Virus record (IMG/VR): IMGVR_UViG_3300036985_000313
Span: 1-22,499 of that record
Length of the DNA stretch: 22,499 bases
From: a virus
Strand: one strand, 5' to 3'
The translations under genes were made by a program, and so were the position numbers. Below the pieces are notes generated by a model. It was not told the origin of the DNA and did no database searches. It saw only the letters and a list, made by a program, of their open reading frames with translations. Position 1 is the stretch's first letter, and every line of letters starts with the position of its first letter. Below are positions 5,476 to 8,173 of the stretch, in pieces.

Positions 5476-6414
5476 ATGGACACCCAAGAGTCAGCCGAAT
5501 TCTCTGAGGAAAAGGTTGATCGACGCGACCTGCTTTCTGAGCAGTTTGACGAAATCGGAAGTCAACCTTCCGAACCAGTAATCCAAGCCGAAGCTGCCGA
5601 AGAACAAGAAGAAGAACCTATTTGGTCAAAGCCGCCTTCTAGCTGGAAGCGCGACTACCACGAACCCTGGCAGAGCGTAGATCCCAAGGTCCGCGAATAC
5701 GTTTGGCAGCGCGAAGAAGAAATGCGCTCCGGCATTGAGCCTATGAAGGCCAAGGCTCAGTTTGCTGACCAAATGAATAAGGCAATGGAGCCTTATCTAC
5801 CCACCATTCAGGGGCTTGGTATTGACGCCCCTACCGCTATCCAGGCGCTTATGCAGGCGGATTATACGCTGCGTAACAGCCCGCCTAACGAAAAACGAGC
5901 CTATCTGGCACAGCTTGCAAGCCAGTATGGTATCAATCTCGGTGATGTCGAATATGACCCACAAGTCAATCCGATTGACCCGGCGATCTACGAACTCAGA
6001 AACGAACTCAATAACGTTCGTGGAGAAGTCGTAGGGTGGAAAAGGCAGCAGGAAGAAGTCCAGAATCAGACTCTGCTGTCTGAAATTGAACAATTCGCCA
6101 CCCAAGCGGATTATTTTGAAGATGCACGCCCCACCATGATTCAGCTTCTAAACGCTGGTATGGCTACGGATCTTCAAGACGCATACGAGAAAGCAATTCG
6201 CTTTGATCCGAACCTTTCTGAGCAAGTGCAGCAAAGCCGACAAGCTGAAGCTGACGCAGCTAGAAGGAAAGCCAATAATACAGCGGCTAAATCGGCCAAA
6301 GCGGCGGCGGTTAGCGTAAGAAGCTCCACACCCGGATTTCAACCGACTACCAAAGCGCAAGACAGGCGTTCCATGCTGCTCGAACAATTCGACAGTGTGA
6401 GTGAACGCTTTTGA
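5476..6414 (+). CDS. Scaffold-like head assembly protein
   Basis: 312 residues from the ATG at 5476, chosen by SD spacing over the ATG at 5470. Scaffolding proteins guide capsid shell assembly and are then lost. Support is its place directly before the major capsid gene, high charge, predicted helices and Glu/Gln-rich segments (for example EEQEEEPIWSKPPSSWKRD, about residues 37-55), with Ala/Lys-rich helices near 255-285. A short motif occurs twice: DRRDLLSEQFDEI at 15-27 and DRRSMLLEQFDSV at 296-308. No protease motif is seen, so a fused prohead protease is not supported. Scaffold is the best call by order and composition, but sequence alone does not prove it. Confidence 0.7.
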   Translation: MDTQESAEFSEEKVDRRDLLSEQFDEIGSQPSEPVIQAEAAEEQEEEPIWSKPPSSWKRDYHEPWQSVDPKVREYVWQREEEMRSGIEPMKAKAQFADQMNKAMEPYLPTIQGLGIDAPTAIQALMQADYTLRNSPPNEKRAYLAQLASQYGINLGDVEYDPQVNPIDPAIYELRNELNNVRGEVVGWKRQQEEVQNQTLLSEIEQFATQADYFEDARPTMIQLLNAGMATDLQDAYEKAIRFDPNLSEQVQQSRQAEADAARRKANNTAAKSAKAAAVSVRSSTPGFQPTTKAQDRRSMLLEQFDSVSERF

Positions 6415-6426
6415 TGACCCCTTGAT

Positions 6427-6432
6427 AAGGAG
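6427..6432 (+). promoter_or_regulatory. Strong ribosome binding site of the major capsid gene
   Basis: AAGGAG lies six bases before the ATG at 6439. This is one of the best SD matches in the window, as expected for the most abundant virion protein, and it supports the short exon 1 as the true start of the capsid gene. Confidence 0.65.
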
Positions 6433-6438
6433 CTAACT

Positions 6439-6519
6439 ATGGCTTTTGCCAACAGCTCGATCAGCGACATCATTGCGACTAATATCCAAAGCCGCACTGG
6501 TGAGCTGGCCGACAACGTT
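6439..6519 (+). CDS. Major capsid protein, exon 1 (codons 1-27)
   Basis: The frame starts at ATG 6439 after a strong SD and encodes 27 residues beginning MAFANSSISDIIATNIQ and ending GELADNV. It then meets TAA at 6520-6522. Joined to the frame that resumes at 7253 it reads ...LADNV-TNNNALLRRL..., which matches the N-terminal region of related phage capsid proteins as I remember them. The exon end CAACGTT (6513-6519) pairs with intron bases GACGTTG (6530-6536), with the last T opposite G. This is the standard 5' splice signal of a group I intron. Splicing would give a 333-residue capsid protein. Confidence 0.85.
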
Positions 6520-7252
6520 TAACATAAGGGACGTTGCTAAATCGGGTGAACTCGGTGAACGCTGAAAGGCCAATACCGAGCCAAGCCAAGAACGGACGGG
6601 GAATCCCTGAGGGTCTTGGAAGGTGTAACGACTAGGCAGTGACGAAAGAATAATCTGCCCACGAGCGCCCGACACACGTTTTGAACCGCTAAAGAGGGGA
6701 ATCCCGAATGGCAACAATCTACGGACTTACTTGTACAGCTACCGGCAAGGTTTACGTCGGCTGCACATCAAAGGTAGCGAAACGGATGCGAGAGCATCTT
6801 TCTCTCCTAAGACGCGGCCTACATGCCGAGCCAGACCTACAGAAGGATTTCACGGCCTACGGTGAAGCCTCCTTCCGCATCTTTCCTCTGAAAGAAATTC
6901 CAGAGGCAAGCCTGCTACAAAAGCGGGAAGCGGAGTTGGGATGGATGGACGCCTACGCCAACCTGGGTCTGCTGTACAATCGTAACCGGACTTCGTTTGC
7001 GCCAACCAAAGACGCCATCGCAAAGGGTCAACCCCGCGCAACGGCTACCGAGGGACGCAAACGGTCAACGGAAGCGAACCAGAAACGTAGATTGGCTCAA
7101 CTTGGAAAGCCTAAGGGCCACGGCGCTAAGATCAGCGCTACCAAACGAGCAAAACGTGTGATGAGATAGTCTGCTCTGCATCAAACAAAAAGATGCAGGA
7201 GCCTCGGATAAAGAGCCGGGGACGACGGGTCGAAAGGCCCCGAAACAAAAGG
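6520..7252 (+). ncRNA. Group I self-splicing intron in the major capsid gene
   Basis: 733 nt between two in-frame halves of the capsid gene. Pairings that can be read: P1, 6513-6519 with 6530-6536, including the T-G wobble at the splice site; P3, TCGGGTG 6542-6548 with CGCCCGA 6666-6672 (one wobble); P4-like, CTCGGT 6551-6556 with ACCGAG 6575-6580; P6-like, CCAAG 6586-6590 with CTTGG 6615-6619; P7, GACTA 6630-6634 with TAGTC 7167-7171; an extra hairpin GGCAG 6635-6639 with CTGCC 6655-6659 between P7 and P3, typical of subgroup IA; P8, CACACGTTTT 6673-6682 with AAAACGTGTG 7151-7160; and P9-region hairpins, CTGCATC/GATGCAG near 7176-7198 and GGGTC-GAAA-GGCCC near 7227-7240. The intron ends in G at 7252. 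The homing endonuclease sits in the P8 loop. One alternative (6519-7251) gives the same protein, but P1 favours 6520. Confidence 0.9.
6708..7169 (+). CDS. GIY-YIG homing endonuclease (intron-encoded)
   Basis: 153 residues from the ATG at 6708, with an AGAGGGGA SD at 6693-6700. Such enzymes cut intronless copies of the host gene so that the intron is copied in. The N-terminal GIY-YIG domain shows TIYGLTCTATGKVYVG at residues 3-18 (the first Gly of GIY is Thr), R26 and H30 in KRMREH, an acidic residue in QKREAELGW (about 71-79) and N91 in LYNRN. By comparison with I-TevI these cover the catalytic set. Residues about 116-150 (GRKRSTEANQKRRLAQLGKP and a second basic repeat) look like NUMOD3-type DNA-binding motifs. 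The coding end is also intron core: P8 3' strand at 7151-7160, and the TAG stop lies in P7. Confidence 0.9.
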   Translation: MATIYGLTCTATGKVYVGCTSKVAKRMREHLSLLRRGLHAEPDLQKDFTAYGEASFRIFPLKEIPEASLLQKREAELGWMDAYANLGLLYNRNRTSFAPTKDAIAKGQPRATATEGRKRSTEANQKRRLAQLGKPKGHGAKISATKRAKRVMR

Positions 7253-8173
7253 ACGAACAACAACGCCCTTCTGCGGCGTTTGAAAGACCGGGGGAACGTG
7301 AAAACGTTCTCGGGTGGTAACGTGATTTTGCAAGAAATCATGTACAACGACTCGACCACGAACAACACGAATAGCTACAGCGGCTATGAAGTGCTGAACG
7401 TGTCCCAAAACTCGCCTATCTCTGCGGCGCAGTTCTCCATCACGCAGTACGCTTCGGCGGTGACCATCTCCGGTCTGGAAATGATCCAGAACACGGGCAA
7501 GGAAGCCATCATTGACCTGCTTGATGGGCGTATGAACGTTGCAGAAGCCCAGCTTGCCAACCGTATCGGTGGCGACATCTATCTGGACGGCACCGGCAAC
7601 AGCGGTAAGAACATTACCGGCCTGGCTGCGGCTGTTCCTGATGCGCCGTCTTCCGGTACTTATGGCGGTATCAACCGTGCGACCTTCACGTTCTGGCAAT
7701 CCGTTTCTTTTTCGGGCCTGACAAACGGTGGTTCAGCTACTTCTGCCTCGAACATCCAGCAGTATATGGATTCCGTGGCCGTCCAGCTGATCCGTGGTAC
7801 TGACAAGCCGGACCTTATCGTTGCGGACAACAACTACTACCGTCTGTACCTTCAGTCGCTGCAATCCATCCAACGCATCTCGGACTCCGGTTCGAGCATG
7901 GCTGGCGCTGGCTTCGCTTCGCTGAAGTATTACGGTGCTGGTATGGCGTCGGACGTTGTGCTTGATGGTGGTATCGGTGCTGCCTCCACGGCGAACCACA
8001 TGTGGTTCCTGAATACCAAGTACCTTCAGTTCCGGCCCCATGTGGACCGCAACTTCGTGCCAATTGGCGGTGAACGCCAAGCGGTTAACCAAGACGCCAT
8101 TGTGAAACTGATTGGCTGGGCGGGTAACATGACCTGCTCGGGCGCTCAGTTCCAAGGCGTTCTGATCGCTTAA
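7253..8173 (+). CDS. Major capsid protein, exon 2 (codons 28-333)
   Basis: Exon 2 supplies 306 residues beginning TNNNALLRRLKDRGNVKTFSG. A frame reading back to 7193 exists, but 7193-7252 is intron 3' structure, so this is not a separate gene. The protein forms the icosahedral shell. Support: position after the scaffold and before a decoration-like gene; the phrase SGYEVLNVSQNSPISAAQFS followed by a long segment with a helix NTGKEAIIDLLDGRMNVAEAQ; and a C-terminal region with NQDAIVKLIGWAGNMTCS typical of phage capsid proteins of this group. Total spliced length is 333 residues. The fold is probably HK97-like, which I infer from family memory rather than from a motif. Confidence 0.88.
   Translation, partial: TNNNALLRRLKDRGNVKTFSGGNVILQEIMYNDSTTNNTNSYSGYEVLNVSQNSPISAAQFSITQYASAVTISGLEMIQNTGKEAIIDLLDGRMNVAEAQLANRIGGDIYLDGTGNSGKNITGLAAAVPDAPSSGTYGGINRATFTFWQSVSFSGLTNGGSATSASNIQQYMDSVAVQLIRGTDKPDLIVADNNYYRLYLQSLQSIQRISDSGSSMAGAGFASLKYYGAGMASDVVLDGGIGAASTANHMWFLNTKYLQFRPHVDRNFVPIGGERQAVNQDAIVKLIGWAGNMTCSGAQFQGVLIA

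Follow-up and report, generated by a model that had tools for sequence, protein, structure and literature searches.

A group I intron in a phage major capsid gene with an endonuclease gene whose 3′ end forms part of P8, J8/7 and P7 of the ribozyme core

The link between translation of an intron-encoded endonuclease and splicing of its intron is an established idea, described for the td intron of phage T4; the original paper on loss of the td hairpin and splicing is reportedly that of Gibb and Edgell. The end of the td ORF forms part of P6a, P6.0 and P7, and unscheduled translation of the endonuclease reduced splicing, which was lowered by loss of the hairpin hiding the ribosome-binding site of I-TevI (PMC2988022, PMC3073962). 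Core creep was predicted by Edgell and colleagues (PMC3073962), and the same paper tabulates overlaps of ORF and core for several introns, among them that of Synechococcus lividus, with an ORF in P8 and an overlap of 81 nt. Overlap of an ORF with the core was also described for the Bastillevirinae phages (PMC11878797). Splicing of the capsid intron of mycobacteriophage LittleE was demonstrated by RT-PCR (PMC3706429).

The window analysed here, that is, the whole stretch of DNA considered, is a virus record of 22,499 bases. Its major capsid protein gene is split by an intron, and the latter carries an endonuclease gene:

6439..6519, + strand, 5′ exon of the major capsid protein gene, 27 codons, the last of them …GAC AAC GTT
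6520..7252, + strand, group I intron of 733 nt (RF00028); its 5′ U-A-A is an in-frame stop for the 5′ exon, and its 3′ end is G
6708..7169, + strand, GIY-YIG homing endonuclease ORF of 153 aa in the P8 loop (PF01541, PHROG)
7253..8173, + strand, 3′ exon of the major capsid protein gene

Joining the exons across 6520-7252 yields an in-frame product of 333 aa, which aligns without interruption across the joint to major capsid proteins (11 records, coverage being 80% or more in 10), among them those of Stenotrophomonas phage BUCT555 and Myxococcus phage Mx8, and has E 1e-102 against PHROG 9953, 'major head protein'. In relatives whose upstream flank was inspected, the intron sits at an identical or almost identical junction in the capsid gene, GA(C/T)AACGTT with TAA or TGA directly after it. 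The junction is slightly different in three loci (L005, L011, L012), where the 5′ splice junction is apparently displaced by about one codon. The borders, U at the end of the 5′ exon and G at the 3′ end of the intron, follow the group I pattern. The endonuclease ORF matches the GIY-YIG domain PF01541 with E 1.5e-7, above the cut-off, as well as PHROG homing endonuclease families; its relatives in the phage collection are all distant, with less than 60% identity. Close relatives of the whole intron are absent from the phage collection searched, where the matches are pieces of the capsid gene and one 51-nt segment. The latter (6538-6588, the P3-P5 region) has 86.5% identity to a sequence found at the DNA polymerase genes of K1F-like phages, which suggests an intron lineage that may be common to another host gene.

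In a permissive Rfam covariance search of positions 6400-7400, RF00028 was aligned to 6510-7198 over the full model length with E = 4.1e-7. This alignment and the covariation of P8 and P7 demonstrate a conserved group I core from P3 to P8, including the AUAGUC of J8/7 and P7. Its elements are as follows:

6542..6548, + strand, P3 5′ strand UCGGGUG (RF00028, folding)
6630..6634, + strand, P7 5′ strand GACUA (RF00028, covariation)
6635..6659, + strand, P7.1 hairpin GGCAG...CUGCC (sequence, folding)
6666..6672, + strand, P3 3′ strand CGCCCGA (RF00028, folding)
6673..6683, + strand, P8 5′ strand (RF00028, folding, covariation)
7150..7160, + strand, P8 3′ strand, encoding residues 149-151 and the last two bases of codon 148
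7161..7166, + strand, J8/7 AUGAGA, encoding the final two residues, M152 and R153
7167..7171, + strand, P7 3′ strand UAGUC (RF00028, covariation); its first three bases, UAG at 7167-7169, are the ORF stop

The intron, having P7.1, is probably of the IA type; subgroup IA2 is defined by P7.1 and P7.2 between P7 and P3 (PMC3428280), and of these two it is P7.1 that is recognised here. The P8 3′ strand AAAACGTGTG (7151-7160), in which codons 149-151 (K R V) follow the third base of codon 148, is perfectly complementary to CACACGTTTT (6673-6682), and G6683-C7150 adds an eleventh pair. The end of the ORF can be written as G[CA AAA CGT GTG][ATG AGA][TAG TC…], where the brackets enclose the parts of P8, J8/7 and P7, respectively. 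The earlier note had described this end of the coding region as doubling as the ribozyme core; its coordinates proved correct, as did the placement of the TAG stop in the P7 3′ strand, and P8 is one pair longer than claimed there.

The RF00028 score, 35.2 bits, is lower than the curated gathering cut-off of 50, so that Rfam at the gathering threshold gives no match, and one could argue from this that the structure is mispredicted, with P8 or P7 located elsewhere and the overlap accidental. The insertion of about 480 nt in P8 may explain the reduced score. We regard misprediction as extremely improbable, as the RF00028 alignment places P8 and the AUAGUC of P7 at the same bases as the layout backed by covariation, energy folding of 6522-7252 with the ORF in place recovers P8 with pair probabilities of 0.88-1.0, and P8 and P7 both covary, no alternative structure having shown better covariance.

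The covariation was assessed in relatives of the intron. Searches with the endonuclease, as a single sequence and as an alignment, produced 45 and 78 viral loci, respectively (many contigs being common to both), and two bacterial MAG loci. The family sample is formed by 78 loci including the window; 76 of them were parsed and represent 52 distinct proteins, and the other two, L240 and L241, run off their contigs. We left out L004, identical in sequence to L003, the truncated L046 and L243-L245, and L285 with an unrecognised P7; repeated contigs were counted once.

For the first seven positions of P8 in 30 haplotypes, 198 of 210 cells are paired in register. None of 20,000 re-pairing permutations reaches this value (mean 124, maximum 151), and slid registers give 50-62 pairs out of 120, compared with 113 out of 120 in register. 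These figures are for unfiltered loci; a biased set, prefiltered for at least four P8 pairs, gave 179 of 182. The lowest haplotypes are those of L005 (3/7), L177 (4/7) and L011/L012 (5/7); inspected by eye, L005, L011 and L012 pair if additional unpaired bases are allowed at the foot of the helix, and L177 if a single base is bulged out. One P8 pair is U-A in L027, U-G in L006 and C-G in L037. As the P8 3′ strand belongs to the reading frame in these loci, the covariation links the end of the coding sequence with bases roughly 450-560 positions upstream. In P7, among introns with a recognised short P8, GACTA co-occurs with TAGTC in 76 of 83 cases and GACCA with TGGTC in 4 of 8, while 79 and 27 further loci, respectively, could not be parsed. 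The 11-mer covering J8/7 and P7 is identical in 41 of 52 cases, J8/7 being mostly AUGAUA or AUGAGA. In related introns that have no ORF, P8 is closed by a short loop and J8/7 is the same.

Termination within the core or shortly beyond it is common to all 76 parsed ORFs of the family: measured against the start of the P7 3′ strand, their stops lie between -8 and +51 nt. Counted from the first base of this strand to the first base of the stop, the positions in the 52 proteins are 0 (21 proteins), -5 (17), -8 (8), +5 (3), +51 (2) and -7 (1). Judging from this sample, the overlap is a family trait and no accident of the window, and the stops at -8, -7, -5, 0, +5 and +51 are the variable 3′ extension into the core by which core creep is recognised. 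Outside the family, the core contains the end of 8 of the 18 P8-loop ORFs that could be parsed, a rough count in which L080, and possibly L285, were given a wrong downstream P7; since it is only these 8, the overlap is not forced.

Several loci of the sample have peculiarities of their own. In L045:2501-3001, L176, L196, L235 and L246, the C-terminal part after the ISATK motif is longer (an LGQ.PS.EA stretch), a tail of a different kind that still ends in the core. Four contigs, L087, L088, L099 and L098, contain many closely spaced group I cores (nine pattern matches each in L087 and L099) with near-identical P7.1 segments reused, and are apparently intron-dense regions of large phages. A second group I core, without an ORF, is situated near the capsid intron in L131, L006, L010 and L017, the P7 5′ strands in L131 being 884 nt apart.

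The stops themselves come from the core. Because the P7 5′ strand is GACUA, the 3′ strand must be UAGUC, and UAG is there for pairing; in addition, the core has UGA in J8/7 and often UGA just 3′ of P7. We considered 14 nt, formed by J8/7, P7 and the next three bases, in 100 ORF-less introns that were chosen by the core pattern, J8/7 and TAGTC being required by the parser. In 54 introns, no frame stays open through these 14 nt; two frames are closed in 43 and one in 3, which makes 97 of 100 with at least two frames stopped. Among shuffled 14-mers, a three-frame stop occurs in 0.65%. Hence an ORF that loses its own stop would usually be capped in the core, as most frames are stopped there. The P7 of L011 and L012 is GACCA/UGGUC, a compensated UA to CG change that converts UAG to UGG and keeps the pairing. 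Beyond the place of the old stop, their ORF has 17 additional codons, which take it through P9 to an end near the 3′ splice site; this fits the published prediction of core creep (PMC3073962). L005 has an extended ORF of the same kind, but its P7, GACCA/UGGCC, contains one A-C mismatch.

The ending of every parsed family ORF in or just beyond the core, along with the hairpin over the ribosome-binding site described below, could also mean that selection has made the P7 stop a switch, with intron folding timed by termination at exactly this place. We consider this very unlikely. The stop shifts among five places in the core and is far beyond it in L005, L011 and L012; moreover, the ORF-less relatives have the same stops, and thus the core stops exist for ribozyme reasons.

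On the protein side, most positions of the ISATK motif GKPKGHGAKISATK show 96-100% conservation; directly after it, where P8 begins, the value drops to 31-59% at most positions, with 0.90 at one alanine. The 49 proteins bearing the motif have 28 distinct tails after it. A maximum-likelihood tree of the 52 proteins, built with the tail left out and with 24 of 49 forks starred as weak, requires at least 10 changes in the phase of the ORF relative to P7 and at least 11 in the position of the stop. The clearest and a well-supported case is L019, with the stop UGA in J8/7, which is the sister of the L018/L021 clade, with the stop UAG in P7 (support 95/88). Compared to L019, L018 and L021 have one extra T between the ISATK motif and P8; ACTTGCGATGAGATAGTC is identical, and the bases of P8 and the core are unchanged. 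The structure model has a pLDDT of about 95 for the catalytic domain; from residue 91 onwards it is 51-70, with 64 and 56 in the last blocks.

An overlap of this kind might be a case of true dual coding, with C-terminal basic residues needed for DNA binding and both the protein and the RNA constraining the same bases. The window tail RAKRVMR is indeed basic, and many tails of the family retain some K or R. The few differences seen in the overlap at close range include synonymous ones: CGT/CGC at 7157 between the window and its nearest relative L002 (endonuclease 98% identical), which breaks one P8 pair, and TTG/TTA between L006 and L027. These are small hints that there may be a coding constraint at short range. 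However, the frame changes, the diversity and low conservation of the tails, and the low confidence of the tail in the structure model make dual coding unlikely as the explanation. The earlier note had placed the same bases under two constraints, a basic protein tail and the catalytic RNA core; the RNA part holds, since the bases are kept, and the protein part is not supported, given the frame changes and the variable tails.

The start of the endonuclease gene has a structural element of its own:

6696..6705, + strand, 3-bp hairpin GGG-GAAU-CCC over the Shine-Dalgarno-like GAGG (6694-6697), directly before the endonuclease start

It is contained in the conserved endonuclease leader gAGGGGaauCCCgaAUG (6694-6710). 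Among the 52 proteins, the hairpin is of the GGG/CCC type in 33, GGA/UCC in 16 and UGG/CCA in 2, with a shorter-loop form in 1, the loop being usually of 4 nt. Paired replacement of the strands is seen in 51 of 52 proteins; the type changes at least 10 times on the tree, and forms with only one strand altered do not occur. The hairpin is weak, from -1.6 to -4.8 kcal/mol, and a permutation test, with five distinct strand pairs to permute, was not significant, 488 of 5,000 permutations reaching the observed value. The paired replacements suggest that the hairpin may restrain translation of the endonuclease. It is a possible counterpart of the td hairpin that hides the I-TevI ribosome-binding site.

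A ribosome completing the ORF must open P8 and P7, the end of the ORF being part of P8, J8/7 and P7; the earlier note had seen here a possible link between endonuclease translation and splicing. By analogy with td, we infer that translation of the endonuclease would block splicing of the window intron, whose anatomy appears compatible with coupling of the td type.

In our preferred explanation, which we consider probable, the insert in the phage capsid gene is a mobile group I intron whose P8 loop houses the gene for a GIY-YIG homing endonuclease. Comparison of the relatives shows that the ORF grew or slid into the 3′ half of the core, namely the P8 3′ strand, J8/7 and P7, where the invariant core provides its stops, the UGA of J8/7, the UAG of P7 and often a UGA after P7. 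Selection maintains the RNA helices, and the frame and the few residues encoded there drift. A ribosome ending at the UAG at 7167 is expected to keep P8 and P7 open, so that one RNA could be translated or spliced, not both at once; the weak hairpin over the ribosome-binding site would then limit translation, allowing most transcripts to fold and splice.

A more tentative extension, in our view rather doubtful, is that the core acts as a near frame-independent translation stop: ORFs in P8 could slide in frame, and ribosomes would be halted before P9 and the 3′ splice site, which together with the start-site hairpin would make a two-part safeguard of splicing. The family of capsid introns, with its change of UAG to UGG in P7, is a natural series in which core creep can be traced stepwise.

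Overlap of an ORF with the core, and the conflict of translation and splicing, is a known arrangement; what evolution keeps here is the RNA structure and not the protein tail. In the open-licence literature, we found no report of the capsid-intron family or of the compensated UAG-to-UGG change in P7. The introns described in earlier papers share different features with the window. The DNA polymerase intron of SPO1 has its ORF inserted in P8 and overlapping P8 (by 9 nt, PMC3073962, Table 1), but it encodes an HNH endonuclease, the overlap is given for P8 only, and the host gene differs from the capsid gene. The DNA polymerase intron of Pf-WMP3, of subgroup IA2 and encoding I-PfoP3I, is likewise a phage intron with P7.1 and with an ORF contributing to P7, although this is an HNH ORF that extends from P6a across P7 (PMC3428280). 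In mycobacteriophage LittleE, a probable group I intron and an endonuclease gene are also found in the major capsid gene; unlike the window, the endonuclease is of the HNH type, its gene is on the opposite strand, and the phage belongs to a different group (PMC3706429). The T4 td intron with I-TevI resembles the window in having a GIY-YIG ORF with the 3′ end within the core, including P7, and a hairpin at the ribosome-binding site (PMC3073962, PMC2988022). On the other hand, the td ORF is in the P6 loop and its last 20 nt are in P6a, P6.0 and P7, whereas the ORF of the window lies in the P8 loop and supplies parts of P8, J8/7 and P7. The capsid-intron family is a useful comparative case for core creep, a published and largely unexamined hypothesis, as it offers dozens of relatives at one insertion site or a few related variants of it, a frame that shifted repeatedly while the catalytic bases stayed the same, and a lineage in which a compensated change in P7 abolished the stop codon. 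Unlike a single intron such as td, this series separates the RNA constraint from the protein constraint.
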